This document shows, piece by piece, positions 27,876 to 60,331 of a DNA stretch of 64,000 nucleotides; within the stretch, counting starts at the first letter, position 1, and each line of letters opens with the position of its first letter. The notes under the pieces were generated by a model. The model made no database searches. It had not been told where the DNA came from and was given only the letters and a program-made list of their open reading frames with translations. Location of the stretch: positions 62,001 to 126,000 of the forward strand of contig JASJDM010000021.1 of assembly GCA_030065125.1 (NCBI GenBank). Reading direction: 5' to 3'. Made by a program: the position numbers and the translations under genes. The DNA is from Lysobacterales bacterium (GTDB lineage: Bacteria; Pseudomonadota; Gammaproteobacteria; Xanthomonadales; SZUA-38).

Positions 27876-30800
27876 ATGAAAAAGGAATTTACCGGCCTGG
27901 CCGGAGGCCGGAGGCTTGCCTGCCTGGCGGTGCTGATGCTGGCGGCACCGATTCACGCAGCCCAGGTGGTCGGTCAGTTTTTGCCTTCCCAGGGGCCGGT
28001 TTTCGGTGTGGCGGTCAACGGTCAGGCACAGAGCCTGACCGTGGACGGTAACCAGTACCCGCTGCCGGCGGAACTCAACCCGGTGGCGGCGACCACCATC
28101 CAGCTACTGCCGGGGCGCAGCGTGGTGGCGTCCCACCGCACGCCGGAGATCACCGATACCTGCAATGGCGACGCGGTACAGCACATGTACCATCGGCTGC
28201 CGGCACAGGCCAATGATCCGCTGACCCTGATTGCCACCATCTGCCTGGACCAGCCACGCGCGTTCCAGGCCATCTACGACCGGCCCGGATTGTCTCCCCA
28301 GCTGGTTGCGGCCCTGGCCGAAGTGGCGGGCCCGACGGTCAGCAACCAGAACATCACCTTCGCCGGCCTGGATATCACCCCGGGCGCCACCGGCAGCGGG
28401 TTGTTCGCATCCGATATCGAATCGATTCGTTTTTCTCCCTCGGGCACCGTGGCGCTGGTCAAGTACGACCTGCCCGGCGGGGCCACCGATCCGGCGGACT
28501 ATCGCCTGGTGGACCTTTGCCCGGGACGGGTGGGACAGCCACTGGCCAATTATGCAGACGTGGGTGCCGGGGCCACCGCCGCGGTGGAAGACGACGGCAT
28601 GGGCGGGTACCGGGTGCGTTTTTCCCATCCGAGTTTCCTCAACGGCTTCGTGCTGCTGCCCATTGCCGACTGCCTGGGCGCGCCGCCGGATCCCGAGCCC
28701 GGTGAGCAGAACCTGCTGGTCAGCCTGGCCGGTAACGGGACCGGCCGGGTGACCTCGGTGCCGGCCGCCATCGACTGTCCCGACGCCGCCTGCCAGGCAG
28801 GCTTCCCGGAGAATCAGAGCGTGACCCTGACCGCCGCGGCATCGCCCGGGTCGAGTTTTGTCGGCTGGAGCGGGGACTGTGGCGGCACCCAGGCCATGGC
28901 CACGGTGACCCTGGACCAGGGCCGACAGTGTATCGCCGAGTTCAGCCGGCCCGCCGCGGACCTGGCGGTGTCCTGCAGCGGGCCCGCCTCCGTGGTCGCG
29001 GGCAGCAACTGGGTGCTCTCCTTCACCTTGACCAACAATGGCCCAAGTGATGCCACCAATACCCAGTTCCAGGTGGTGCCGGGCGGCGATCTGGCGTTTG
29101 ATTTTCGCGACTCCAGTGCGGGCTGTTTTGCCGGTTTTGACGGGTCGGTCAGCTGCAATGCGGGTCTGCTGGCGGCTTCCGAGCAGGCAACCTTCGATAT
29201 CAGCCTGGAAAGCAGCGCCCTGGCCCGGGGCAGCGTCACTGTCCAGGCCAGCGGTTCCTCCTCCGTTGACGATCCCGTGTCGCCAAATGACGGCTGTACG
29301 CTGGATGCGACGGTCCAGGTGGAAGTCGACCTGGTGCTGGACAAGGATGCCGACCCGGACCCGGTGGCGGCGGGCGAACTGCTGCTGTATTCGCTGGAAG
29401 TGGAGAACCTGGGCCGGTCGGCGGCCACCGAGGTGGTGATCTCCGACACGCTGCCGGCCGAGGTGACGCCGGTCCAGCCGGCGTCGGCGGGCACCTGCAA
29501 TATCGAATCGGTGTTTCCCGGCAGCTCGGTAGTGGCCACCCTGGTCACCCGGGTCGGAAGCGGCGTCACGCCGGGTACCCGGATCGACAACACCGCCAGC
29601 GTGTCATCGCTGGAAACGGACCTGAATCCCGCGGACAACACCGATTCCAAAAGTGTCACCGTTGCGGCTGCGCCGGCACCGCCGGCTGCAGGATTCGTGC
29701 GAATCGCGCGGGAGTTCGAGGATGGCATCAATGACTTCAGCGTTCCGGCCCAGTCCGGACCCTTCACGGGCTTCTTCGCCCAGGATGCGGATGAGGGTGT
29801 GTTTGTCAGCGCCGGGGGCGCCCTGCTGAAGTTATACGATTCCGGCGGCGCCCTGCCTGGGCGTGGCGGTGGTTTCGTCAACATCGGCATCGCGCAGGGG
29901 CCGACCCTGGACGGGCTGGCCCTGGCCTGGGCGGGACAGTACAACGATACCGGCGCCACGCCCTCGCGCCTGGACAACGTGGTGGCGGCCTCCGGCGAGT
30001 GCACGCCGAGGGAACTGTTTGACCAGCGCTTCCTGGCCGGCGGCAGCAATAACGCCGACGACTGGCTGCTGCTGGCCGAAATCCGTCTGCGCAGCGGCCG
30101 CCTGGCATTTGCCAGCAGCCGCTCCGGCAGTCCGCTGGTGGCGGTGCGTGAATCCAGCGGATCGGCAACCACCATTGCCGACGCCGCCACACCCCTGCCG
30201 GGTGGCAACGACCGCTTCATGCAGGCGGTGGCTGGACTGGCCTTTGACGGCAACAACGTCGTGTTCCACGCCGGCCTGGGCAGCGGCTGCAGCCTGACCA
30301 GTAATGGCTGTGATTTCGAGGGCATTTACCGCAGCAGCGGCGGTTCGCTCAGCCTGATCGCAGATACCGAAACGCCGGTGCCAGGCGGCAGCGGTAACTT
30401 TGGCGGTTTTTTCTGGGACTCCGGGCAAATGGCCGTAGACGGTGGCAACGTGGTGTTCCTGGGCTACGACGACCAGCGGCGCTACGGCATCTACCTGCAC
30501 GATGGCTCAGGCCTGCGGGTGGTGGTGGACGGTTCGACGCCGATACCTGGCGAGATGGCGAATTTCAGCTACTTCGGTGTGGTCCAGACTGGTGATTTCG
30601 ATTTCCCCGACTCGGCTCCGGCCCTGAAAGGCAGCACCGTGGCTTTTGTCGGGGGTGACCAGATCGGCAGCGGGCTTTACCTGTGGCAGAACGGCAGCCT
30701 GAGCACTGTGCTGAACCGGGGCGACACCATCAACGGCAACCGCATTGACGGATTTCGGCTGGGGCCCGAATCCCTGGGGGTGGATCGCCTGGCATTCGTG

Positions 30801-30908
30801 GCTGATGCGGCCGACGGGCAGTCGGCCGGAAGTGCCCGGTCCATCTACACCATCGCGGTCAACACCGACGTCATTTTTGCCAGCGGGTTTGAGCCGGCAC
30901 CTCCGTAA
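27876..30908 (+). CDS. Secreted repeat protein (InlB-B-like, DUF11) with C-terminal GFE tag
   Basis: A 1010-residue exported protein. A signal peptide (1-28, ending IHAAQ) is followed by an unassigned domain. Then come a divergent InlB-B-like repeat (about 285-360; GWSGDCGG) and two DUF11/CARDB-like domains (about 365-600; FTLTNNGPSDATNT and SLEVENLGRSAATEV). The C-terminal half (about 605-1000) has repeats such as GGNDRFMQAVAGLAFDGNNVVFHA that suggest a beta-propeller. It ends DVIFASGFEPAPP, carrying the tag shared with four other proteins here (codons 30873-30893). GAGGAGG lies just before ATG. A cell-surface or extracellular role is likely; the ligand is unknown. Confidence 0.85.
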   Translation: MKKEFTGLAGGRRLACLAVLMLAAPIHAAQVVGQFLPSQGPVFGVAVNGQAQSLTVDGNQYPLPAELNPVAATTIQLLPGRSVVASHRTPEITDTCNGDAVQHMYHRLPAQANDPLTLIATICLDQPRAFQAIYDRPGLSPQLVAALAEVAGPTVSNQNITFAGLDITPGATGSGLFASDIESIRFSPSGTVALVKYDLPGGATDPADYRLVDLCPGRVGQPLANYADVGAGATAAVEDDGMGGYRVRFSHPSFLNGFVLLPIADCLGAPPDPEPGEQNLLVSLAGNGTGRVTSVPAAIDCPDAACQAGFPENQSVTLTAAASPGSSFVGWSGDCGGTQAMATVTLDQGRQCIAEFSRPAADLAVSCSGPASVVAGSNWVLSFTLTNNGPSDATNTQFQVVPGGDLAFDFRDSSAGCFAGFDGSVSCNAGLLAASEQATFDISLESSALARGSVTVQASGSSSVDDPVSPNDGCTLDATVQVEVDLVLDKDADPDPVAAGELLLYSLEVENLGRSAATEVVISDTLPAEVTPVQPASAGTCNIESVFPGSSVVATLVTRVGSGVTPGTRIDNTASVSSLETDLNPADNTDSKSVTVAAAPAPPAAGFVRIAREFEDGINDFSVPAQSGPFTGFFAQDADEGVFVSAGGALLKLYDSGGALPGRGGGFVNIGIAQGPTLDGLALAWAGQYNDTGATPSRLDNVVAASGECTPRELFDQRFLAGGSNNADDWLLLAEIRLRSGRLAFASSRSGSPLVAVRESSGSATTIADAATPLPGGNDRFMQAVAGLAFDGNNVVFHAGLGSGCSLTSNGCDFEGIYRSSGGSLSLIADTETPVPGGSGNFGGFFWDSGQMAVDGGNVVFLGYDDQRRYGIYLHDGSGLRVVVDGSTPIPGEMANFSYFGVVQTGDFDFPDSAPALKGSTVAFVGGDQIGSGLYLWQNGSLSTVLNRGDTINGNRIDGFRLGPESLGVDRLAFVADAADGQSAGSARSIYTIAVNTDVIFASGFEPAPP

Positions 30909-33732: not shown

Positions 33733-35592
33733 ATGAGACGACTCGCAATGCTGACACTGCTTCTCACCGCTGGAGGCGTCATTGCCCAGGTGCCCAACAC
33801 GTTTGTATACCAGGGCGTGTTGGACCAGGCTGGAACGCCGGCCAACGGCGAATTCGATTTTCAGTTCGAGCTGTTTGACGATCCGGATTTTGTTCTGGGT
33901 ATGTCCTTTGCCGGACCGGTGACTGTATTGGATTTTGGGGTGTCCGAGGGTGATTTCGCGGTGCCCGTTGATTTCGGCATGGACGTTTTCGGTGACATTC
34001 CACTGTTCCTGGAAGTACGGGTTCGGGATGCTGCTTCCAATGGCGCTTTCACGGTGCTGGAACCCCGGCAGCCGCTGTATGCGGTTCCCCTGGCGGTCCA
34101 CGCGCTGAACGTGGGTGCAGACGTGGTCGGTGGGGCGCAGATTGCTGACGCCAGCGTCACCGCGGCCGACCTGGCGCCCAGTGCGGTTGGGGCAGCGGCC
34201 GTGAACAGCGCGGATGTCCAGCTCCGGGTCAGCGGCAATTGTGCCGCCGGCAGTGCGGTTCGGAGCGTCAACGGAGATGGCACGGTGAGCTGTGAACCCG
34301 TTCCCGCCGGTGATATTACCGCCGTGACCCCCGGCGCTGGCCTGACCGGCGGCGGCAGCACCGGCAGCGCTGAGTTGGCCGTGGATTTCGGCCAGGTCCA
34401 GGCCCGCCTGCAGGGCGGCTGCGAGGTGGGGGAACTGCTGGCCGGCATCGCCGCCGACGGCACCCCGGTCTGCACGGTGCCGCCCATTCCGGCCACTGCC
34501 AGCGTGATCAGCGACCCGGCCGGCAGCGTGGGAACCAACAATTCGATACTGATTGGCACTGATGGACTGCCTCTGGTTGTCTTCTACAGCCAGTCCCCGT
34601 CAGGCGTTGTAGCCGTGCACTGCAATGACGTGGCCTGTTTCGGCAGCGATGAGTCCGAGGTGCTGCTGGAAGCGGGAGCGGGGGATGAGGGTATCGCCGC
34701 CATAGCCGGCGCCGACGGATTGCCGTTGATCGCATACCATCAGCCGGCCACCAATCAGGTGAAGCTGCTCCGGTGTAATGACCCGGCCTGTTCCGGTGGC
34801 GACGAAAGTACCAGTGTTATCGACTCGGCTCCGGGCATTTACGACATTTCCATGGCGCTGGATGCGTCGGGATTTCCGGTAGTGGCCTTCCTGGCCAATG
34901 GACCCGGGGGAAATGAATGGTCGGTGTTTGTATTGCGCTGCAATGACGTGGCATGTGCCGGCGGCGATGACACGGTTAATCCCGCCGAAACATTATCGTT
35001 CGGTCCGGCTATGTCGCCATTGAACGTTGCTGTTGCCATTGGGTCCGACAACAACCCGTTTTTGATCTATCGCTACAGCCCGTTCGCCTCGGTGTCCGAG
35101 ATTTTTGCCCTTAAATGCAATGATCCACAGTGCTCAGGGGAGGATGAATCGACGGTCGACCTGGGCATGATCGACATCATTGCCGGTCTCGACGTCCGCA
35201 TCGACGGTGCCGGAAATCCCGTTTACGCCTTATACGACGCCATGACCCCACGGCTGGATCTGATCCGCTGCGCCACCCCGACCTGTCAGACCATTGCGAC
35301 CACCGAAAGCATTGAATTTAATGGTGGTGGCTTTCCGTCCCTGCTGCTGGGTCCGGGTGACCGGCCCAGCGTGGCCTATTGTTCCCGAGACTTCACGCTG
35401 AGATACGCCACCTGCAACGATGCGGCCTGTGCCGGTGGGGACGATACGCTGGCTGACACCGGGTCGCTGTGCAACGGGACCACGGCTCACGCCATGGGCA
35501 GTGACGGCCTGCCGGTGATCAGTTACCCCGTGTCTGAGCCGGCTGGCACCTACGCCAAGGTCTACCACTGCGTTGCGCCTGCCTGTCGATGA
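33733..35592 (+). CDS. Secreted Cys-rich repeat protein with tail-fibre-like N-terminus
   Basis: A 619-residue exported protein (signal peptide about 1-19). Residues 20-120 start FVYQGVLDQAGTPANGEFDF and resemble domains placed before tail-fibre or surface stalk regions. A collagen-like or coiled middle holds GAGLTGGGSTGSAELAV. The C-terminal 430 residues have about six repeats, each built on CNDxxCxGxDE (for example LRCNDPACSGGDES and LKCNDPQCSGEDES) alternating with GxDGLPLI; this looks like a Cys-pinned propeller. GAGGAA precedes ATG 33733; a TTG at 33715 is also in frame. It has no GFE tag, but its stop overlaps the start of a small tagged gene. Confidence 0.78.
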   Translation: MRRLAMLTLLLTAGGVIAQVPNTFVYQGVLDQAGTPANGEFDFQFELFDDPDFVLGMSFAGPVTVLDFGVSEGDFAVPVDFGMDVFGDIPLFLEVRVRDAASNGAFTVLEPRQPLYAVPLAVHALNVGADVVGGAQIADASVTAADLAPSAVGAAAVNSADVQLRVSGNCAAGSAVRSVNGDGTVSCEPVPAGDITAVTPGAGLTGGGSTGSAELAVDFGQVQARLQGGCEVGELLAGIAADGTPVCTVPPIPATASVISDPAGSVGTNNSILIGTDGLPLVVFYSQSPSGVVAVHCNDVACFGSDESEVLLEAGAGDEGIAAIAGADGLPLIAYHQPATNQVKLLRCNDPACSGGDESTSVIDSAPGIYDISMALDASGFPVVAFLANGPGGNEWSVFVLRCNDVACAGGDDTVNPAETLSFGPAMSPLNVAVAIGSDNNPFLIYRYSPFASVSEIFALKCNDPQCSGEDESTVDLGMIDIIAGLDVRIDGAGNPVYALYDAMTPRLDLIRCATPTCQTIATTESIEFNGGGFPSLLLGPGDRPSVAYCSRDFTLRYATCNDAACAGGDDTLADTGSLCNGTTAHAMGSDGLPVISYPVSEPAGTYAKVYHCVAPACR

Positions 35593-35879
35593 AGACTGCC
35601 ATGCCCACACTAATTCGAAAACTGCCATTTTTGCTGATGGTGATGAGCTGCGCCACTGCCGTGGCCGCCGGCCTGGAAGGGGGCGTATTCAGCATTCGCC
35701 AGGGAACCGTTTCGGCCGGCCAGGCTGAGCTTGAGGGACGGGATTTCAACGCAAGCGGGACGATGGGCATGCCGGCGGTGGGTGAAATCAGCGGAGGAGA
35801 TTTCAAAGTCTCCGCTGGAGTTGTCATCCAGCCCGCCAGTCAGAGTGAGCTGGTGTTCCGCAACGGCTTCGAGGGCTGA
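35589..35879 (+). CDS. Small secreted protein with GFE tag, coupled to upstream repeat protein
   Basis: A 96-residue exported protein. A signal peptide (about 1-26, ending TAVAAG) is followed by a Gly/Ser-rich domain (SAGQAELEGRDFNASG) and the C-terminal tag ELVFRNGFEG (codons 35853-35873). The start overlaps the stop of the Cys-rich repeat gene as ATGA, so the two proteins are coupled and probably made in ratio. The large partner lacks the tag, so this small protein may supply it in trans or cap the complex. That is hypothesis. Function is otherwise unknown. Confidence 0.75.
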   Translation: MKTAMPTLIRKLPFLLMVMSCATAVAAGLEGGVFSIRQGTVSAGQAELEGRDFNASGTMGMPAVGEISGGDFKVSAGVVIQPASQSELVFRNGFEG

Positions 35880-35922: not shown

Positions 35923-38025
35923 TCAGCGGGCGCCGGCCCGGAGCAGCAGTCCGGCGATCTCCTGCTGGTCGCCGGCCTGGTTGAGCGGGGTCCGGTAGCC
36001 GTCGAGGCGGCTGTCGTAGTCGCCCTGGAGGTTGGGGTCGGCGCCCTGGTCCAGCAGCATGCGCACCAGCTCAGGGTTGCCGCTCCATACGGCGTTGATC
36101 AGCGGGGTGTCATCGCCCTGGACCCGGCCGTTAACGTCCGCTCCTGCGTCCACCAGCAGCAAAGCCACGTCCATATGTCCCGCGCGGGAGGCGTTGATCA
36201 GCGCGTTACCGTCGCCGCTGACGGACAGATTGACGTCGGCGCCTGCCGCGATCAACGCTTCGATCATGAGCAGGTCGTTCCTGCGGGCCGCATCGATCAG
36301 CGCGGTGCCGTCGCCCGTGACCTGGGAATTGACCGCGGCGCCGGCCTTGAGCAGCAGCTCAGCAATATCATCGTGTCCGTGGCGTATGGCCAGCATCAGC
36401 GGGGTGCCGTCACCCCGGTACTCGACGCTGGGATCGGCGCCGGCCCGGATCAGGGCCTCAACCACGTCGGCATGGCCGCCCACAACCGCATGAAACAGCG
36501 GCGCTTCGTCGCCGCGTACATACAGATTGGGGTCAGCCCCGGCATCCAGCAGCCGCTGCACTGCTTCACGGCTGCCGCTGCGTGCCGCGGCGATCAGCGG
36601 TGAGCCGTCCCCACGGACCTTTTCGTTGGCCCTGGCACCGCGCTGCAGCAGTTCAATGACGATGTCCTCGGAACCGCTGTTTGCGGCAGCCATCAGGGCG
36701 GTTTCATCCCCCATGGCGTGGTAGTTGACGTCGGCACCATTGTCCAGCAGTAAGCGCACCACGGCCCAGTGGCCGTTGCGGGCGGCGGCGACCAGGGGCG
36801 TTCTGGGGTCGCGGCTGCGCTTCTCGTCAACGTCAGCGCCCTCGGCAATCAGCCGCTCCGCTTCGGCCAGGTCACCGGTCCAGGCGGCATACAGCAACCC
36901 GTCACCTGGCCTGGGTGAGCGATCGGCAACGCCTGCCAGCCAGCTGGCGGCGGTGGCGTGGCCGATGGCAGCCTTGACCCTCGTCAGGGTCGGCCAGTTG
37001 GGTGAGGCTATGGCTGTGCCAGTGACAGTCAGCACGGCGGCGAGGATGACAATCCGTCCCAGCGGGCGGGTGGAATGATCTTTCTTGAGGTCCAGCATGT
37101 GAGCAATTCTCCGTCTCAGGTGGTTGCGGGACCGCAGACAGGGGATGGCGAGCTCCGGATCTCTTTTCCCGGAGTGGGTGGGCAGCAGCGACTCTGCCAC
37201 GGACACCAGGCTGTTGGCGTAGGCGCTGGGCGCAGCGCCCAGTCCCACGGCCCAGTCGTCGCAGGCAGATTCGCGTTCCCGGTTGATCTGGTGGATGGCG
37301 TACCAGACCGCCGGGTTGAATCCATACAGAATCCGGGCGGTGAACTGCAGCCACACCACCCAGTGATCCTTCCGTTTAATATGGCCCAGTTCGTGGACCA
37401 GGGTGTGTTCCAGCAGGCCCCGGTCAACTCCCCGCTTCCAGGAAGCCGGCAGCAGGACCGCCGGCGACCAGGTACCGTTGGTCTGGGGCGAACTGATCGT
37501 GTCGGACCAGAAGACCGGCACCGGTGCGGACAAACCGACCCGCCTGACGAGCCGGTCTGACAGGCTCTGGACCGAATCCGATACCGGTTCCGCTGCGCCG
37601 CGCAGACCGGCCACGTGGTGCCTGGCGCGTCTCAACTGGCCGACCTGCCAGGCCAGGATAACAAGCCAGAGGCCGGCGGCCAGCAATGGCCATGCGGGCT
37701 GAGCAATGGTGGCGGCAGGCGCCCGGTCAAGGCGCGCGGCCGGGGAGGCCGGCGGGAGCATGGGCATCCGGGCCGTGGATGCAGTCACGGCTGTTGTTGG
37801 AGATTGGGGGCTGGCGGACGGCAGATCCACGGGTTTTTCCGGCAGGAAAACCAGCAGCGGCATCAGCAGCATGACCATCAGCGTGACCAGCCAGGCTGAG
37901 TGCCGGGCTGCGGCGCTGTCCTTCGAGCGCCAGCGCATCACCAGGGCTACCAGGGCGGTCAGCAGCAAACCCTGCCACAGATGGCTCCACATCAACCCTG
38001 CGGCGAACTCCAGCAAGGCTGTCAT
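35923..38025 (-). CDS. BlaR1-like M56 metallopeptidase fused to ankyrin repeats
   Basis: A 700-residue membrane protein. The N-terminal BlaR1/MecR1-type part (about 1-345) has four or five hydrophobic segments and an M56 zinc protease site H211-E-L-G-H215 with the downstream ERESACDDW acid. The penicillin-binding sensor domain of BlaR1 is absent. In its place, residues about 365-700 form some nine or ten ankyrin repeats (for example ADVNLSVSGDGNALINASRAG). It starts inside the stop of the BlaI gene (ATGA overlap). A membrane protease that cleaves BlaI on an unknown signal sensed through ankyrin repeats is the likely design. Confidence 0.88.
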   Translation of the reverse strand: MTALLEFAAGLMWSHLWQGLLLTALVALVMRWRSKDSAAARHSAWLVTLMVMLLMPLLVFLPEKPVDLPSASPQSPTTAVTASTARMPMLPPASPAARLDRAPAATIAQPAWPLLAAGLWLVILAWQVGQLRRARHHVAGLRGAAEPVSDSVQSLSDRLVRRVGLSAPVPVFWSDTISSPQTNGTWSPAVLLPASWKRGVDRGLLEHTLVHELGHIKRKDHWVVWLQFTARILYGFNPAVWYAIHQINRERESACDDWAVGLGAAPSAYANSLVSVAESLLPTHSGKRDPELAIPCLRSRNHLRRRIAHMLDLKKDHSTRPLGRIVILAAVLTVTGTAIASPNWPTLTRVKAAIGHATAASWLAGVADRSPRPGDGLLYAAWTGDLAEAERLIAEGADVDEKRSRDPRTPLVAAARNGHWAVVRLLLDNGADVNYHAMGDETALMAAANSGSEDIVIELLQRGARANEKVRGDGSPLIAAARSGSREAVQRLLDAGADPNLYVRGDEAPLFHAVVGGHADVVEALIRAGADPSVEYRGDGTPLMLAIRHGHDDIAELLLKAGAAVNSQVTGDGTALIDAARRNDLLMIEALIAAGADVNLSVSGDGNALINASRAGHMDVALLLVDAGADVNGRVQGDDTPLINAVWSGNPELVRMLLDQGADPNLQGDYDSRLDGYRTPLNQAGDQQEIAGLLLRAGAR

Positions 38026-38423
38026 GACTCCGGCTCCCCGGAATCGCGGGTTGATTCATCGATCATGGCCCGCAGGCGGTCGATCTCCATGGGGTCCACT
38101 TCGTCGTTGTCCAGCAGGTTCTGGACCAGTGCGGCAGGTGAACCGGCGAAAAACTGGGAAAGCAGGTGTTTCAGCGCCTTGCGCTGGGCCCGATCCCGAT
38201 CTACCAGGGGGCGGTAGACAAAGGCGCGCCCCTGCTTGTGATGCGCCAGGTATCCCTTGGTTTCCAGGATGCCCATCATGGTCTGGACCGTGTTGTAGGC
38301 CACCACCTCATCCTGGTTGAGCCGGTCTGTGACCTCCCGCACGGAGGCCTCCTCGAGATTCCAGATCACGTCCATGATCCGGAGCTCGCCATCAGTCAGT
38401 GTCTGCGATCGTTTACGTGCCAT
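38022..38423 (-). CDS. BlaI/MecI-type transcription repressor
   Basis: A 133-residue winged-helix repressor of the penicillinase-repressor family (LTDGELRIMDVIWNLEEASV at the N-terminus, VAYNTVQTMMGILETKGYLA as the recognition region). Family members dimerise, bind a short palindrome and are cut by a BlaR1-like M56 protease. Here the M56-ankyrin gene follows with a four-base ATGA overlap. Two perfect AT-rich palindromes flank the promoter directly upstream (38429-38444 and 38482-38493) and are the natural operators, so autoregulation is likely. The classic TACA-n-TGTA operator is not seen. Confidence 0.92.
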   Translation of the reverse strand: MARKRSQTLTDGELRIMDVIWNLEEASVREVTDRLNQDEVVAYNTVQTMMGILETKGYLAHHKQGRAFVYRPLVDRDRAQRKALKHLLSQFFAGSPAALVQNLLDNDEVDPMEIDRLRAMIDESTRDSGEPES

Positions 38424-38428
38424 CTTTA

Positions 38429-38444
38429 TCCTAAATATTTAGGA
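38429..38444. promoter_or_regulatory. BlaI-type operator palindrome, proximal
   Basis: TCCTAAATATTTAGGA is a perfect 16-bp palindrome five bases before the BlaI start and just past the -10 element on the minus strand. It shares TAA/TTA cores with the distal site, consistent with a dimeric repressor blocking RNA polymerase. Confidence 0.8.
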
Positions 38445-38452
38445 CTTAGCTC

Positions 38453-38481
38453 AGTCTAGCCGTCCCTTCCGAGCGTGTCAA
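38453..38481 (-). promoter_or_regulatory. Sigma-70 promoter of BlaI/M56 operon
   Basis: On the minus strand, TTGACA (complement of 38476-38481) and TAGACT (complement of 38453-38458) are 17 bases apart, a consensus -35 and a fair -10. The element is bracketed by the two AT-rich palindromes, so repression by BlaI would be direct. This is one of the few clear sigma-70 promoters in this GC-rich window. Confidence 0.8.
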
Positions 38482-38493
38482 CTAATTAATTAG
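38482..38493. promoter_or_regulatory. BlaI-type operator palindrome, distal
   Basis: CTAATTAATTAG is a perfect 12-bp palindrome touching the -35 box on its upstream side. With the proximal site it brackets the promoter; the centres are about 51 bp apart, close to five helical turns, so both could be bound on one face. A control of the divergent 38637 gene is also possible. Confidence 0.75.
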
Positions 38494-38636
38494 GTTTTCC
38501 CCGGCCTGGGTATCGGCAGGGTTTAACGTCGAAATAACGGCGGCTTTACCTGCAGCCAACAGGGCACTGGCATAGTTCGATCACACGGCCGGAACCGGGA
38601 CCCAGGTCTCGTCCTGGCAGGCTTGGGAGGACCCGC

Positions 38637-40040
38637 ATGATTCGCGCGCCTTGGGTGATTGGTCTGATGATATTGGTGTCTGGGATTCACCCACCAGCGC
38701 CGGTTCTGGCTCAGTCGCAGTGGGCCTTCGAGGAAACCTTCGACGGGGTTCCGCCGGCACCGTCCCAGGATCTGCTGCCCAGGAGCTTTGACTATGTCGT
38801 CACCCACCGGCAGCATCCCCAGGAGCAGTTCAGCAAAAACTACGACGCCTTTCTGGCCGATCACAACTCGGACTGCGCGGGGCCCAACCCGTCCGTTTCC
38901 CCGTTGCCCCAGCACCTGGTTGTTACTCGCCAGGACTCCAACGGTGATCAACCTGACGAGAGCTTCTTCATCTGCAAAAACCACATGATGTCCTCCCTGG
39001 GCGAGGTGGCCTGGTACTCCAACAGCGCTTTCTGGCCGCGACAGGCATTTGACTTCGCTGACGGCGGCGTGCTCGAGTTTGACGTCAATCTCAACCTTGG
39101 CCACGGCCAGCGGGTCTGGTGGGAGGTGCTGATCGCGCCGCGGGACCAGATGCGGACCGGCACCGCGTCACCCAGTTCTGCCATCGATGAACGTTACCCC
39201 CCGGACCGGATTGTGCTCAGTTTCAGCGAGCTGGTGCGCCACATCCGCGTCGGCAGCGGGGGATTGGACCCGGAAGGCTGGCAGGTCGACGAGCGGCAGT
39301 TCGGGGACTATGACTGGGCCTACTGGAGCGCTTTGTACCCGACCGATCCGGCACTGACCGACCGGCGGATTCGCCGCACCATGCGCATCACATTGCAGGA
39401 CGATCGTATCGTTTGGGCCATACAGATGGCGGACGGCGAATATGACGAGTTTGCCGTGGATCTTCCATCGGGTCTGCCTTTCACCCGCGGGCTGGTGATG
39501 TTCAAAACCCATGCCTACACCCCGGTTCAGCATGGCAATACCGACACCTACACTTTTCACTGGGACAACATCCGGTTCAGCGGCCCGGTGCTGGAGGGCT
39601 ACCAGGCTTTCGCGGCGGATGAGGTTGTCTATCTGCAGGCCAATGGCAACCGCCCGGTGGGGGACACCGTCAGCGTCAACGTCAACCTCCCCCGGGTCGG
39701 CGCCAACCCCGTTCTGTTTGGCCAACTGCATCAGCCACTCCGCGGCCAGGTTCGTCTGCGCGTGAATGGTCGGCCTGAGGTTGAGGTCCACCCTTACGAA
39801 TACGCGCTGGACAACTGCGTCAGTGGCGAATGGCGGGACTGGAAGAGCTTCCGGCTGCCGCTGGACCCGACCTGGCTGGTGCCCGGAAACAACGTGCTGA
39901 CCTGGCAGGTCGGAGAACGACCGGAATGCGCCCTGGGACGAGACGACTGGTGGGACGGTTACTCCGCCAAGTTTCTGCAGATTCAGATGGACGCCGGGTC
40001 GGGCGTCAACGATCAGATCTTTGCCTCGGGGTTTGAATAA
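38637..40040 (+). CDS. Secreted protein of unknown function with GFE tag
   Basis: A 467-residue exported protein. The signal peptide (about 1-24, ending PVLAQ) is followed by a region with a jelly-roll/lectin-like alternation of aromatic strands (WAFEETFDGVPP, GGVLEFDVNLNLGHG, TYTFHWDNIRFSG), then a second beta-rich domain from about residue 325. It ends NDQIFASGFE, the exact tag consensus (codons 40017-40037). GGAGGA lies before ATG 38637. I do not recognise a named family or catalytic residues. It is divergent from the BlaI operon, so the palindromes at 38429-38493 might also affect it. It converges with the DUF2855 gene only seven bases away. Confidence 0.75.
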   Translation: MIRAPWVIGLMILVSGIHPPAPVLAQSQWAFEETFDGVPPAPSQDLLPRSFDYVVTHRQHPQEQFSKNYDAFLADHNSDCAGPNPSVSPLPQHLVVTRQDSNGDQPDESFFICKNHMMSSLGEVAWYSNSAFWPRQAFDFADGGVLEFDVNLNLGHGQRVWWEVLIAPRDQMRTGTASPSSAIDERYPPDRIVLSFSELVRHIRVGSGGLDPEGWQVDERQFGDYDWAYWSALYPTDPALTDRRIRRTMRITLQDDRIVWAIQMADGEYDEFAVDLPSGLPFTRGLVMFKTHAYTPVQHGNTDTYTFHWDNIRFSGPVLEGYQAFAADEVVYLQANGNRPVGDTVSVNVNLPRVGANPVLFGQLHQPLRGQVRLRVNGRPEVEVHPYEYALDNCVSGEWRDWKSFRLPLDPTWLVPGNNVLTWQVGERPECALGRDDWWDGYSAKFLQIQMDAGSGVNDQIFASGFE

Positions 40041-44022: not shown

Positions 44023-47000
44023 TCAACCCTCGAAACCGTTGGAGAAGATAGACTCCGGCACCTGCAGAGGCTGGAGGTAATGCTCCATCCAGGGTGACGA
44101 TTCCGACTCGGTCAGGGAGGCCGAATGGGATCGGACCTGGTACTGGTAAATCCGATCTGAAACCGCCTTGGTATCCAGGAAACCAAAAGTCGGCGTGGTT
44201 CCCAGCATCATCACCTGGCCGTCGGGATTGCGGCGGTAAACGGTGTAGCCAGTGACCCGCGGATCCTCTACGGGCGTCCACTGCACCTGCACCAGGGCAG
44301 AACTGCGGCTGGAAGAAACTCGCAGGCCCTGGGGTACCGGCAGACCGCCTATGGAAACCCGGAGCGTGTCATTGTTGCCGTCAGCATCGGTGAAGTCCGG
44401 GCCGCGATTGACGCTGAGGTAAAGGTGTCGCTTCTCGTCCAATGAGAAGCTGGCGGGTACCGGCACCGTCAGGGTCTGCCACTCCATGGCGCCGGCCGGG
44501 CCGATGTTGGCGGTGGTCTCCAGTACCGGTATCTCGAATGGGTCGTCCCAGGAGGCCACCAGGGTCGGTTTCTTGCCGGCACCGCCCAGGTTCATCACCT
44601 TGACCGTTACCTCGATGGTTCCGCCGGGATTGAGGGCTTCGGCCTCGGTGCCGGCGTCCAGCACGGCGAAGTCGGGCAGGCCGGAGTCACTGCCTACGAA
44701 AACCTCGCCATTGCCGCTGACACCCTTGGTGGCCGGCATGTGGGCTTTCGCCGTGGAGCCCGCGGCCGCCAGCACGTCCAGCTCCAGGGCCGGCCCGCGG
44801 GCGCCGCCAATCAGGATATCGCCGGTCACCGGGTTGGCTACGGCCTGAATGCCCCAGTTGGTCCGGCCGTCGTTGGTCAGGGGCGTCGGGTCTGTCAGGC
44901 CCGCGGCGACCAGCTCCAGTTTCGCCAGGTCACCGGTGCCGAGCTTCACGCCGACGGGGTCGGTTTCCCTGACGTCGCTGTTGGACAGATAGCGAAACAA
45001 CGCCGTGACCCGGCCGTCCTCGCCCTGGGCAAGGGAGGGTTGTTCCACATAAAGGGCGCGGTTCTGGGAATCCAGCCGGACTTCGTCATTCCAGCTGCAG
45101 ATGCCCATGTCGCAGTCTCCCCAGGCCGAGTGCAGCCGCCGCCGCGCCCCGACGAATCGGTCACTGTCGCCGGAGATGGTGTAAGCCACCAGCACGTCGC
45201 CGCCGGCGTGGGAAACCGCGTCAGGGGAAGCAATAGACATGGGCACACCCACGGCATCCTGGGCGGCGGCCAGGTTGGGAAAGCGGTACCTGAGCTTGCG
45301 CTGGTTCATGTCGTACTGGCCGCTGCCGGCGGCCGGGTTTTCGATCCACAGGACCATGGCGTCACCGTAGTGGTACAGGGCCTCGGGCTGCACCTGTTTG
45401 AATACGTTGCCGGGATCAATGGCCTGGACCGGCGTCCAGGTCTCGCTCAGCCCGTCAAATTCGGCCCAGCGCACCTCGATGTCGTGCATGGCGAGATTGC
45501 CGGCGCGGTCGTGTTCCCAGGCGGCCAGCAGGCGGCCCTGGGTGCCGCAGCCGGCCTGGGTCGGCGGACACACGTCAAGGGTTACGGCGCCGTCGCCTCC
45601 CTGGTTGGGGGCAGTCAGGTCCAGGGTCGGGCCAAAGCTGTCGGAGTTGGCGTCGTATACGGCATAGACCAGGTGCAGCTGCGACGAGGCGTTTTCGAAT
45701 TCGGTCAGCCCGTCAATCAGCAGGAAATCCTCGTTGCTGAGATCAGTCTGGGTCCAGACCACGATGCCGGTGTCGTCATCCAGCATGGCGATTTTGGGCC
45801 GCATGGCACCGGGCTGGCTGTCCAGGTCGAAGCCGCTGATCAGGTTCCGGCCGTATCGCTTTTCGACCCTGATGCCGGAGGCGGTCTCAAAGGCGATCCA
45901 TTCCATCCCGAGGTCCGACACTGCAACGGCGGGCCGGGTGATGTTGACCGGTGCTCCGCCACCCGCCTTGGTGTTGGGTCCTGGGACCTTGCAGTTGGAA
46001 GGCTCGGCGATGGTGAACAGGGAGATCGAGTCCTCCGCCTTGACGCAGAAGTCGCACCATCCCACCGAAGCGATATAGGCCAGTACCAGGTCGAAGTTGA
46101 AACAGGCTTCGACATTGGCGGACAGGCTGTCCACTACGGTAATGGGCATGCTCACGCCAATGACCGGTGATGCCTGGACCCGGGCAGACACCACGCCAAA
46201 CAGGGCGGACAGGTCGAAAAAGATGTCCAGGCCGGCCTGCACGATGGGTTCCGCGGTGAAGTTCACCGAAATTTTCTGCAGGGAGGCCACCACGTCGCCG
46301 AAGTACCGGAAATAGACGCCGAACCAGATGTCCGCGCCCAGGGTGGCGGCAGCGATAGGCGGGATTCCCCAGGCGTAGCGGAAGATGGGTATGGCGCCGG
46401 TTTCGAAGATGGTCTCCGGCTCGCAGCTGCCGAAGTCGAGCAGGGCGTCGGGGCGCGGAAAGGGGGTGTCATCCGCATGGCTGCAGGTTGTCGGGCCGCC
46501 TTTGAGCAGGCGCCTGGCCTTGCCGCTGCCGTCGTCGTCCTGGCTGATGTCGGTGACGGTGGACTTGGGTTCCGCGCCCCTGTTGTTGACCTGGCCGGCC
46601 GTGTCCGCAGTGCGGATTCTATTGCCAAAGGTCCCGGCGGTAATGGTCTGGTCGACCACGGCCTGGCTGCCCAGGTCATTGTTCATGGGCGGCACGTCAT
46701 ACTCGGCCAGCGCGTCCTGGCTGGCCTGGCTGTTGGTGCTGGCGTCCTGCATCAGCATCACTTCCGTGCCGATGATTCGAACCCGGTCCGCGCTCCATGA
46801 CATGAATACGTCTTCGTACTGGGTCGGATCCTTGAACCAGGTTGGACCTTCCTTCAGCCCCAGGGTGAAAGTCTTGCTGATGAAACGTCCGCTGAATCCG
46901 ATTTCACCCCGGATCAGGCCGTCCAACTCCCGGTCAGCCGGCGGGTCGAATCGATGGAGGTCCGGAATCTCGGCGAACAGGATGCCGCCGTCGATGTCAC

Positions 47001-48873
47001 AGGCGCCGCCGTTGGCCTGGAAGCTCATCGGGAGCGGGTCCGGATAGCCTTCCAGGGTCAGGGTGGTGTTTTCCAGTCTTCCAAACAGCGCCTGGTCGTA
47101 TTCAATCTCCACCCGGGCCGGGGCGACGACGCTGAAGTCCGACGCGTTGAGCGTGGGAAAAGTGGTGACATCGCCGATGAACACGGATTCCTGCTTGTCG
47201 CCCAGTGCAATTTCCATCCCGACCTGCTGACCTTCCCATTCGATCACCTGGGCGGGGCGAACCACCTGGGGCAGCCCCGGCACGTAGGGCAGGCTCTGGA
47301 AGCAGAGATCGCCGCTGCTGGGAAAGTCGGGCAGTGTGACCACCAGCGGACCCGTGTTGGGGTCGTGCCGTACGGTAAACTCGCCGTCGCTGGTGTTGCG
47401 CAGGTAGAAACCGTTGTCAGCCACCTGCAGGTCGAATCGCAATCCCGTGCCGCAGCCCTCCTCGGTGGTGTAGCCATAGCCTTTGTCCAGCGCCGCCACC
47501 TTGACGGAGTACTCCAGCGGCGCCGGCACCGGCACGCTGGTGTTGATGTCGACGTCGTTGGTGGCGACTGCAGCGGCGCGGATCATCACATAACGAAAGG
47601 GGTTGAGGACAAACTCGGCCTGACCTCTGAAGATGCCCTCCTCGGGAAAGCTGGTCTCGGCGGTGTACTGGATCGTCCCGGTAGCCGGGCACCGACCCTG
47701 GGCAATCTTTTCCGCTCCGTCGGAGAACTGGTTCTCCCCGAACAGGTGCGCCGCACCCAGGCCCAGGTTGCCGCCGGCGGGCAGACCCTTGGCCGCGCCG
47801 GCATTCCTGAATGGGTTGGAATACAGCCCCTGGCGCAGAACCACCCGGGCGCCGCCGATGGGCTCACCTTGCTGATTCTGTACCAGGATTCGGACCGGGA
47901 CGGCTTCCTCATCGCCGAGGTTCAGTCCACCGGCGGGCAGGCAGTCGGACTCCCCGGTAACGGGATTGCGGAAGACCAGGCCGTGCTCGTCGAATGGGTT
48001 GATCAGGTAGTTGGCTGGAATCCCGTCCAGCAGGCCGCCAACCCGGGCATTCAGTACCTGGAAATCACCATTGGACTGCATCTCCACCAGGGCCGAGGCC
48101 ACGGGCAGGCATACGCCTTCGGCGACCATGGCGTAGGTCCACTCCAGGCTTGCGGCATCCATGCCGCTGGGCGGTTCAACGGAGCCCTCGACACTGTAGG
48201 TTTCGCCCAGGCGAATGTTGGCTGGCATGCCTCGGAACCTGGGGGTTCCAAACGCGACTACGTCCCGGGCCAGGCGCGTGATCGTCCCAGCGGCGTCGCC
48301 TGCCGGCAGGGAGTCCAGTGTCTGGGTCAGCAGCACTCCGACCGGATCATCGGTGGCACTGGACGAGGCCGGCATGCGGACCTGAAACATGTCTTCACTG
48401 GTGGCCACGGGTAAGGGGCCCGCCACCCGCAGATCGTCGATCCGGATGTCAACCGCCGCGCCGGGCGTCAGGCCGAATCCCGAGACCGTGACAATTTCAC
48501 CCGGGTAAGCGCTGCCGGGGTTGGTTTCGATACCGGGGATCTCGAGAATCCGAATGTCGCTGGTGGCCAGCACCTGGCCGCTGAAATCCAGTACCCGAAT
48601 CTGCCATGGGCCGGGCGCAACGGCTGGGACGGTGACGCTGAGGGTCACCGCACCGTCGCGTCCCGTCGGCGTGGTGCCAAGGGACTCGCTGGTGGCAGGC
48701 TCAGCCCGGTACAGGTCGAGCACATAGCGGGCGCCCGGATTGAGGCCACGAATGTTGAGGGTCAGTTCCTGGGCCGGCAGCACGACGTTGGGCAGCGCGG
48801 TGACTGACTGGGACCAGCCAGGAGAGCTGAGCATCAATCCCAGCAGGAGCAGCAGGCAGGTGGTGTGTTTCAT
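44023..48873 (-). CDS. Giant secreted adhesin-like protein with CARDB, FN3 and GFE tag
   Basis: A 1616-residue exported protein. A signal peptide (1-22, ending PGWSQ) is followed by beta-rich IPT/Ig-like domains (LTLNIRGLNPGARYVLDLY; GEIVTVSGFGLTPGAAVDI). The long middle is unassigned and contains a hydrophobic stretch with paired Cys. The last 220 residues hold a CARDB-like domain (IEVTVKVMNLGGAGKKPTLV) and a fibronectin type III domain (PVPQGLRVSSSRSSALVQVQ and TGYTVYRRNPDGQ). It ends PESIFSNGFEG (codons 44029-44049). GAGAGGA lies before the ATG. It is divergent from the ECF sigma/kinase operon, which may control it. Surface attachment or matrix function is likely; the partner is unknown. 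Confidence 0.85.
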   Translation of the reverse strand: MKHTTCLLLLLGLMLSSPGWSQSVTALPNVVLPAQELTLNIRGLNPGARYVLDLYRAEPATSESLGTTPTGRDGAVTLSVTVPAVAPGPWQIRVLDFSGQVLATSDIRILEIPGIETNPGSAYPGEIVTVSGFGLTPGAAVDIRIDDLRVAGPLPVATSEDMFQVRMPASSSATDDPVGVLLTQTLDSLPAGDAAGTITRLARDVVAFGTPRFRGMPANIRLGETYSVEGSVEPPSGMDAASLEWTYAMVAEGVCLPVASALVEMQSNGDFQVLNARVGGLLDGIPANYLINPFDEHGLVFRNPVTGESDCLPAGGLNLGDEEAVPVRILVQNQQGEPIGGARVVLRQGLYSNPFRNAGAAKGLPAGGNLGLGAAHLFGENQFSDGAEKIAQGRCPATGTIQYTAETSFPEEGIFRGQAEFVLNPFRYVMIRAAAVATNDVDINTSVPVPAPLEYSVKVAALDKGYGYTTEEGCGTGLRFDLQVADNGFYLRNTSDGEFTVRHDPNTGPLVVTLPDFPSSGDLCFQSLPYVPGLPQVVRPAQVIEWEGQQVGMEIALGDKQESVFIGDVTTFPTLNASDFSVVAPARVEIEYDQALFGRLENTTLTLEGYPDPLPMSFQANGGACDIDGGILFAEIPDLHRFDPPADRELDGLIRGEIGFSGRFISKTFTLGLKEGPTWFKDPTQYEDVFMSWSADRVRIIGTEVMLMQDASTNSQASQDALAEYDVPPMNNDLGSQAVVDQTITAGTFGNRIRTADTAGQVNNRGAEPKSTVTDISQDDDGSGKARRLLKGGPTTCSHADDTPFPRPDALLDFGSCEPETIFETGAIPIFRYAWGIPPIAAATLGADIWFGVYFRYFGDVVASLQKISVNFTAEPIVQAGLDIFFDLSALFGVVSARVQASPVIGVSMPITVVDSLSANVEACFNFDLVLAYIASVGWCDFCVKAEDSISLFTIAEPSNCKVPGPNTKAGGGAPVNITRPAVAVSDLGMEWIAFETASGIRVEKRYGRNLISGFDLDSQPGAMRPKIAMLDDDTGIVVWTQTDLSNEDFLLIDGLTEFENASSQLHLVYAVYDANSDSFGPTLDLTAPNQGGDGAVTLDVCPPTQAGCGTQGRLLAAWEHDRAGNLAMHDIEVRWAEFDGLSETWTPVQAIDPGNVFKQVQPEALYHYGDAMVLWIENPAAGSGQYDMNQRKLRYRFPNLAAAQDAVGVPMSIASPDAVSHAGGDVLVAYTISGDSDRFVGARRRLHSAWGDCDMGICSWNDEVRLDSQNRALYVEQPSLAQGEDGRVTALFRYLSNSDVRETDPVGVKLGTGDLAKLELVAAGLTDPTPLTNDGRTNWGIQAVANPVTGDILIGGARGPALELDVLAAAGSTAKAHMPATKGVSGNGEVFVGSDSGLPDFAVLDAGTEAEALNPGGTIEVTVKVMNLGGAGKKPTLVASWDDPFEIPVLETTANIGPAGAMEWQTLTVPVPASFSLDEKRHLYLSVNRGPDFTDADGNNDTLRVSIGGLPVPQGLRVSSSRSSALVQVQWTPVEDPRVTGYTVYRRNPDGQVMMLGTTPTFGFLDTKAVSDRIYQYQVRSHSASLTESESSPWMEHYLQPLQVPESIFSNGFEG

Positions 48874-49021
48874 GTGCGGTCCTCTCGCGTAGGGCATTCA
48901 ACATCCAGGTGGAACGCGGCTGTCCCATCCCTGTCCGGGTCAATGCCTCCACCGGAGAAACCGAACGCGCCCGACCGGTTTTGGCTTGATCACCGGGGGT
49001 AGAGCAGCGAATATCCCTACA

Positions 49022-58933: not shown

Positions 58934-60331
58934 GTGGATCGCCGACAGTTTCTCAAGACCAACGCCCTGGGCGGGTTGACAGCAGCCTCCGCGCTGCCGA
59001 CGGCCGCGCGGGCCGGGGGCACGGGTTTCAACCAGGAAATCCTGGTTTACGTGTTTCTGCGGGGCGGCATCGACGGCCTCAACGTCATCGTGCCGCTGGA
59101 CGACAACGATCACGAGTACTACTCCGTCATGCGGCCGCGGCTGGCCATACCCGATGCCGGTCCGGGAGCCGCTTTGCCAATCTCCGGTGAGCCCTTTGGC
59201 TTCAACCCGCTGGCGTCGCCGCTCAAGGATTTGTACGACCAGGGCTACATGGCTGTAGTGCAGGCGGCGGGAACCCCGGATCCGGTTTCGTCACGCAGCC
59301 ATTTCGACGCGGAAAAGTACGTGGAGCTGGGAACCCCCGGGCTGCTGGGTACGTCCACGGGCTGGCTGCAGCGGCATTTTCTGGCAATGACAGAAACCCT
59401 CGATCTCTACCCCGACGAAATGCTGCTGCCCATCGTGGCCTACCGCAACAACCCGCCCGTCAGCCTGCTGGGCAACACTTCGCTGCTGACGGTGTGGGAT
59501 CCACAGATTTTCCGGATGAACAATGCCCACTGGCATTGGAACGAGCCTGATCCCAACTGGCCGCAAAAAGGTGACACCCAGATTCCGGCACTAAATGATA
59601 TTTACGGCTACGACGTCGACGCGTTCAGCCGGGCCGGTGCCCAGGCACTGACCGCGGAGGGAATCCTTCGACAGCTGTACAGCGACAGCTACACCAGTGC
59701 GGGCAGCACGCCCTACCAGGACAACAGCATTGCCTCTCAACTGGCCAGCACGGCCCAGCTGATCAAGCTCGACCTGGAGACCCGGATATTCACCCTGGAC
59801 TGGGGCAACTTCGACTCCCACGCCAACCAGAACCTGCCGGACTACTTCGACACACCGCTGGACCAGCTGTGCCGGGCCGTGTCTGCGTTCTTCGAGGATC
59901 TCGACGCCAGCGGCGGCGACTACGCCGACCGCACCACCATGATCATCCAGAGCGAATTTGGCCGGCGTGGCTACGAGAACATCTCCGTGGGTACAGATCA
60001 CGGCAACGGCAACATCCTGCTGGCCATCGGCAAGCAGGTAAACGGTGGCCGCCTGTACGGCACCTGGCCCGGGCTGTATCCGGGAACCGCCGACGGATTC
60101 GTCAATTACGCCAATCCGAAGAATGGCAGCACGGATCCCGAGCTCTACGAGGGCGCACTGGCCACCACCACGGATTTCCGGCGAGTGCTCAGCGAATTCC
60201 TGGCGGTCCGATGCAGGCATACGCCCGCCACCCTCGCCAGCGTGTTTCCTGATTACTCCGGATATTCGCCCATGGGAATCTTCCAGGCCCAGGACAGGCT
60301 CTTTCAGAACGGATTCGAAAGCCCGGCGTAG
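58934..60331 (+). CDS. DUF1501 family Tat protein with C-terminal GFE tag
   Basis: A 465-residue DUF1501 protein. The Tat signal is MDRRQFLKTNALGGLTAASA. Later motifs include YVFLRGGIDGLNVIVPLDDN, SRSHFDAEKYVELGTPG and GRRGYENISVGTDHGNGNIL, as in the family, which belongs to the alkaline-phosphatase/sulfatase-like group. After the usual family end (SPMGIF) the chain continues QAQDRLFQNGFESPA, the tag consensus (codons 60299-60319). GTG 58934 lies next to GAGGAG. A tag on a Tat-folded substrate is notable because the other tagged proteins look Sec-exported. Confidence 0.9.
   Translation: MDRRQFLKTNALGGLTAASALPTAARAGGTGFNQEILVYVFLRGGIDGLNVIVPLDDNDHEYYSVMRPRLAIPDAGPGAALPISGEPFGFNPLASPLKDLYDQGYMAVVQAAGTPDPVSSRSHFDAEKYVELGTPGLLGTSTGWLQRHFLAMTETLDLYPDEMLLPIVAYRNNPPVSLLGNTSLLTVWDPQIFRMNNAHWHWNEPDPNWPQKGDTQIPALNDIYGYDVDAFSRAGAQALTAEGILRQLYSDSYTSAGSTPYQDNSIASQLASTAQLIKLDLETRIFTLDWGNFDSHANQNLPDYFDTPLDQLCRAVSAFFEDLDASGGDYADRTTMIIQSEFGRRGYENISVGTDHGNGNILLAIGKQVNGGRLYGTWPGLYPGTADGFVNYANPKNGSTDPELYEGALATTTDFRRVLSEFLAVRCRHTPATLASVFPDYSGYSPMGIFQAQDRLFQNGFESPA

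Follow-up and report, generated by a model that had tools for sequence, protein, structure and literature searches.

What a BlaI/M56 regulatory pair senses and controls when its membrane protease ends in ankyrin repeats is the question raised by a locus in the window, the 64,000-nucleotide stretch of a Lysobacterales contig analysed here. BlaR1 and MecR1 are the textbook proteases that read an antibiotic directly, Gram-negative genomes contain many BlaI/M56 pairs that lack such a drug sensor, and ankyrin repeats generally bind proteins. The locus is a real, apparently undescribed variant of the BlaI/M56 module, and is probably best explained in full as a two-gene, self-repressing switch with an outward-facing ankyrin domain. 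A full-text literature search, in which subscription papers were partly covered, returned no paper on fusions of M56, BlaI or BlaR1 proteins with ankyrin repeats (domain databases may list the architecture). The two genes and the parts of their products are as follows:

38022-38423, minus strand: blaI-family repressor gene, 133 aa (Penicillinase_R, Pfam E=1.1e-35; orthologues in the sister-genus genomes G001 and G002)
35923-38025, minus strand: M56-ankyrin fusion gene, 700 aa (Pfam M56 E=1.1e-27 and Ank_2 E=5.8e-60)
37105-37956, minus strand: M56 peptidase domain, residues 24-307 (Pfam E=1.1e-27; profile match to BlaR1)
37381-37395, minus strand: HELGH zinc motif, residues 211-215 (alignment of the fusions)
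37270-37272, minus strand: putative third zinc ligand, E252 in RERESACDD (invariant in nine fusions; role by analogy with BlaR1)
37006-37062, minus strand: fourth transmembrane helix, residues 322-340, ending AIA/SP (hydropathy)
35935-36897, minus strand: ten ankyrin repeats, residues 377-697, predicted to be periplasmic (Pfam; AlphaFold2, pLDDT mostly around 90)

On sequence criteria, the repressor is a member of the BlaI/MecI/CopY family (PF03965), as the Penicillinase_R profile is matched over its whole length (1-115 of 115) and the domain makes up the whole protein. By the same measure its partner belongs to the M56 peptidase family (PF05569), with the domain, the HExxH motif and the downstream glutamate all present. 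The HELGH motif reported in the first-pass annotation lies within the Pfam match; it reads HELAH in the sister-genus proteins, and H211, E212, H215 and E252 are invariant in an alignment of nine fusions. When a profile of the M56 part of seven fusions was compared with solved structures, BlaR1 was the sole match (8exp and 8exs, about E=7e-25), and the alignment to 8exp (E=6.6e-25) spans residues 9-320 of BlaR1, which are its membrane and protease part including the HExxH region, with the sensor outside.

The ankyrin repeats do stand where BlaR1 and MecR1 have their class-D-like C-terminal sensor. A Pfam scan of the 700-aa protein found no Transpeptidase, beta-lactamase or other penicillin-binding domain and assigned residues 377-697 to ankyrin, while the NCBIfam blaR1_generic model scores 71 bits, far short of its cut-off of 400, with the match confined to the M56 part. 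Nine or ten repeats had been claimed; an AlphaFold2 model built on the nine fusion sequences has ten ankyrin-type helix pairs at residues 377-696, along with four long helices, a protease fold and a floppy linker (339-367). The overall pTM of this model is 0.50, so the arrangement of the ankyrin part relative to the M56 part is undefined. Foldseek with the repeat part returned DARPins and ankyrins; a single-sequence model of the M56 part (pLDDT 49) was dropped.

Hydropathy places four helices at residues 11-29, 43-61, 107-131 and 322-340. Both the protease region and the loop that follows helix 1 are basic, and the part beyond helix 4 is acidic and contains no cysteine. By analogy with BlaR1, the prediction is a four-helix, C-out topology, in which the M56 protease would be cytoplasmic and the ankyrin repeats periplasmic. 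The last membrane helix has an AxA-type end (AIA/SP, ALA/AP, AVA, AWA, LHA) in eight of the nine fusions and lacks one in the TonB-tailed M56 paralogues inspected. These helix ends could mean that helix 4 is signal-peptide-like and that signal peptidase I frees the ankyrin domain into the periplasm as the effector, with the switch setting its supply. This is improbable, as alanine-rich helix ends are common and such ends were also found in coiled-coil-tailed and untailed M56 paralogues. Signal-peptidase-I-like sites at the end of the last helix were recorded at 37006-37062 in the window and at the loci L051, L052, L134-L137 and L139; a paralogue on contig C88 of the window genome has a lipobox-like LAAC at this position.

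The two genes are tightly joined, as the M56-ankyrin gene starts within blaI and shares 4 bp with it at the blaI stop codon, and the promoter lies upstream of blaI:

38481-38494, minus strand: operator 1, CCTAATTAATTAGT, abutting the -35 box (position and half-sites kept in G001 and G002)
38476-38481, minus strand: -35 box TTGACA (sequence; TTGAC invariant in G001 and G002)
38453-38458, minus strand: -10 box TAGACT, after a 17-bp spacer (sequence)
38430-38443, minus strand: operator 2, CCTAAATATTTAGG, 3' of the -10 box and overlapping the AGGA before the ATG (position kept in G001 and G002)

The description of a TTGACA-17-TAGACT promoter flanked by two palindromes unlike the TACA/TGTA operator thus agrees with the sequence, and the palindromes are conserved in the sister genus. 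The span first assigned to the system (35923-38493) includes both genes and both 12-bp palindromes and stops one base short of the 14-bp form of the upstream palindrome, which reaches 38494.

The two CCTAA-N4-TTAGG dyads are likely to be the BlaI operators. A promoter alignment of the window genome (G000) with G001 and G002, anchored at the -35 box, shows no variation in 19 of its 20 half-site columns, compared with 13 of 63 outside the operators and the -35 box (Fisher p=2e-9), the rest of the promoter having diverged; the dyads are spaced by 51 bp in all three genomes. Operator 1 contains a 12-bp core, CTAATTAATTAG, at 38482-38493, and two perfect copies of this core, 49 bp apart, surround the promoter of a fusion locus in a distant family (G1057). 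With up to one mismatch, CTAAWTWWTTAG has four strand-matches (two sites) in the window versus 0.04 expected from shuffling. Exact matches number four in the 6.5-Mb genome, three of them within blaI promoters. The looser CTAA-N4-TTAG occurs six times in the 6.5 Mb (two at the window promoter, one in front of blaI in the C88 pair, a further one on contig C15 and two others), half of these sites being in blaI promoters, and exact CCTAA-N4-TTAGG is found at operator 2 alone, as it is in G002 at that genome's own operator 2. The classical BlaI-type operator is TACANNTGTA (PMC7253601), so that the window system has a changed DNA address. The window blaI has these dyads rather than the classic TACA-NN-TGTA operator, which is typical of PF03965 without being universal; its membership of that family still stands, since operators differ within the BlaI family (PMC8457756).

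Comparison with the BlaI-BlaR1 and MecI-MecR1 systems of Staphylococcus reveals a common plan of a winged-helix BlaI, a membrane M56 protease (four helices and HExxH) and two promoter dyads. The window system differs in having ten ankyrin repeats instead of the class-D-like sensor and CCTAA-N4-TTAGG instead of TACA/TGTA, and neither a beta-lactamase nor a PBP2a gene is linked to it. A parallel for the DNA sites is found in BlaI_0696 and BlaI_1845 of Clostridium thermocellum, whose operators are likewise paired inverted repeats of non-TACA type and which govern just one to three operons, including their own, with targets limited to promoters that have paired sites, although their motif is GTCTAT/GACTAT and no ankyrin partner is reported (PMC8457756).

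The first-pass annotation had also predicted a new regulon. A genome-wide search for the palindromes upstream of other genes found no further operator pair in G000, which leaves the operon itself as the minimal regulon, and from the distribution of sites the system looks to control its own operon rather than a new gene set. There is no linked or conserved output gene beside the window locus or its counterparts in G001 and G002. One perfect CTAATTAATTAG occurs on contig C15 (L016:1580-1591), where 4 bp separate it from the ATG of a Tll0287-like (PF11845) gene. This copy is the only exact CTAAWTWWTTAG site outside blaI promoters, it is single and it is absent from the G001 orthologue, which leaves it as no more than a weak candidate; by the paired-sites rule of C. 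thermocellum it is probably not a target. Both sister-genus genomes keep a TGCTAAAAA[A/G]TTAGTA-like site 5' of a sterol-desaturase-like gene (L091:1566-1577 in G001 and L090:1515-1526 in G002). This site was not attributed to a window-type BlaI because its flanks are of the C88 type (TGCTAA) rather than CCTAA; it is possibly a target of a C88-type BlaI (TGCTAA..TTAGCA).

The window genome encodes four blaI/M56 pairs, with the blaI gene adjoining the M56 gene in every one. The M56 proteins end in ankyrin repeats (C21, the window), a TonB_C domain (C106), a coiled coil (C88) or no added domain (C137), and none of the four has a penicillin sensor. Loss of the sensor is therefore ordinary and a trait of many M56 proteins, and its replacement by ankyrin repeats is the special part. 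The other three pairs differ from that of the window in their C-terminal regions and operators, e.g., GACTACAATTGTAGTC at C137. The four BlaI paralogues (window, L009, L010 and L011) have differing recognition helices, and each has its own promoter dyad or candidate repeat; such diversity of helices and operators in one genome is a natural set for the study of BlaI specificity. Across genomes, BlaIs of the CTAA operator group have the recognition helix AYNTVQTM/AYTTVQTL, and those of G867, G1042 and C137, with TTACA/TGTA-type sites, have a GT[VI]K[TS]LL-type or KTINTLI helix, so that recognition helices vary in step with operator type.

Orthologous pairs are present in G001 and G002, where the M56-ankyrin proteins are 53-54% identical to that of the window. 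A search with the M56 part alone in 398 genomes of the order (E<=1e-25) detected the fusion only in G000, G001 and G002. The idea of an architecture restricted to this family, drawn from that search and from a class sample at 1e-18, was overturned when a profile that extends from M56 into the first repeats was run over 398 genomes of the phylum at 1e-16. Matches spanning both parts were found in G032, G867, G046 and G1042 (two), and G1057 was added by reading its tail, for a total of six more M56-ankyrin proteins in four other families and on at least two M56 lineages. Pfam confirms M56 and ankyrin domains in the five of these that were scanned, and G1057 was assigned by eye. At least six of the 398 sampled phylum genomes, G000 included, thus encode the architecture, a lower bound because few candidates per genome were scored. 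In plasmid and viral collections, no M56-ankyrin fusion reached 80% coverage of the query.

All of these relatives have the same domain order as the window protein with fewer repeats, and here too the blaI gene is directly beside the M56 gene. A single clade of all nine fusions was rejected on the M56-domain tree (p-AU 0.001), while one clade of those from the window's class (G000, G001, G002, G032, G046 and G1057) was not rejected (p 0.28). The last repeats resemble one another from lineage to lineage, and most have an R[TS]PL-type cap (RTPLNQA/RSPLGQA-like). Likeness of the last repeats on different M56 lineages indicates either that fusion of the ankyrin module to M56 happened repeatedly or that the module was passed from one M56 lineage to another. 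Unlike the window locus, G867 and one of the G1042 loci (G1042a) have classic TTACA..TGTAA operators.

A possible clue to the signal comes from the relatives. In four of the six distant loci (G032, G046, G867 and G1042a), a serine hydrolase of the beta-lactamase fold (PF00144; E between 2e-43 and 2e-53 in the three that were scanned, the G046 copy being found by tblastn) is encoded directly downstream of the M56-ankyrin gene, at a distance of 127-144 bp in the three cases measured. These hydrolases are mutually 40-57% identical, have leader-like hydrophobic N-termini, and keep an SVSK motif with YSG as the second motif; they score far under the NCBIfam class C beta-lactamase cut-offs. No homologue of them was detected by tblastn (1e-5) in the window or in the G001 and G002 loci, and none lies beside the fusion gene of G1057 or the second locus of G1042 (G1042b). 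The statement that no beta-lactamase is nearby holds for this type throughout the window; a scan of the neighbouring genes found no beta-lactamase domain, the window-wide search having been specific to the PF00144 type. The conclusion that the signal is probably new is weakened by the hydrolase in the four related loci: the window system may still respond to beta-lactams or peptidoglycan, and the best lead is the secreted hydrolase of those loci, which points to cell-wall or beta-lactam-type stress.

The same linkage suggests a split version of BlaR1, in which a separate periplasmic serine hydrolase of penicillin-recognizing fold would dock on the ankyrin domain, so that the system would still sense beta-lactams or peptidoglycan fragments, with the partner gene unlinked in the window genome. 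The orthology, leaders and SVSK and YSG motifs of the linked hydrolases speak for this possibility, but it is rather unlikely: the window, G001, G002, G1057 and G1042b loci have no such neighbour, beta-lactam binding is doubtful given the class C scores and a YSG rather than YAN/YSN motif, and the hydrolase may be just a regulated output.

In the switch that we favour, BlaI dimers on both dyads would obstruct the -35 region together with the operon start, and the periplasmic ankyrin domain would bind a periplasmic protein. Helix 4 would relay this contact to the M56 domain in the cytoplasm, and that domain would cut BlaI and thereby derepress its own operon. Cleavage of BlaI by an M56 protease is established for BlaR1 (PMC7593790), and cleavage by the window protein is proposed from that precedent. 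The cleavage pair of Staphylococcus aureus BlaI, N101-F102, is apparently not preserved in the window BlaI, where the region reads GSP-A/T. The M56-ankyrin protein might accordingly leave BlaI uncut and have another substrate, with BlaI acting as an independent local autorepressor, yet such independence is very improbable, given that the genes overlap and that blaI adjoins an M56 gene at the fusion loci as well as in each of the genome's four pairs.

A broader proposal, which we advance as speculative, is that a family of periplasmic ankyrin receptors steers M56 proteases: fused at least twice, they would sense a protein partner (in several lineages the co-encoded beta-lactamase-fold hydrolase) rather than a drug, and may be clipped by signal peptidase. 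If this is true, BlaR1 signalling would be a modular chassis for receptors, on which one protein-sensing ectodomain can be exchanged for another. For the question of what BlaI/M56 pairs sense when they lack a drug sensor, the window locus offers a concrete case: its ankyrin receptor is predicted to face outward, its operator pair is mapped, its regulon can be clearly predicted, and its relatives encode a candidate partner enzyme of the beta-lactamase fold.

Apart from this system, several exported proteins that look unrelated have in common a short C-terminal tail, approximately F-x-x-G-F-E (IFASGFE, IFSNGFEG, LFQNGFES, VFQDGFE), in the window (27876-30908, 38637-40040, 44023-48897 and 58934-60331, and also 35589-35879) and at L009 (8005-12000); the tail looks like a sorting or secretion tag.
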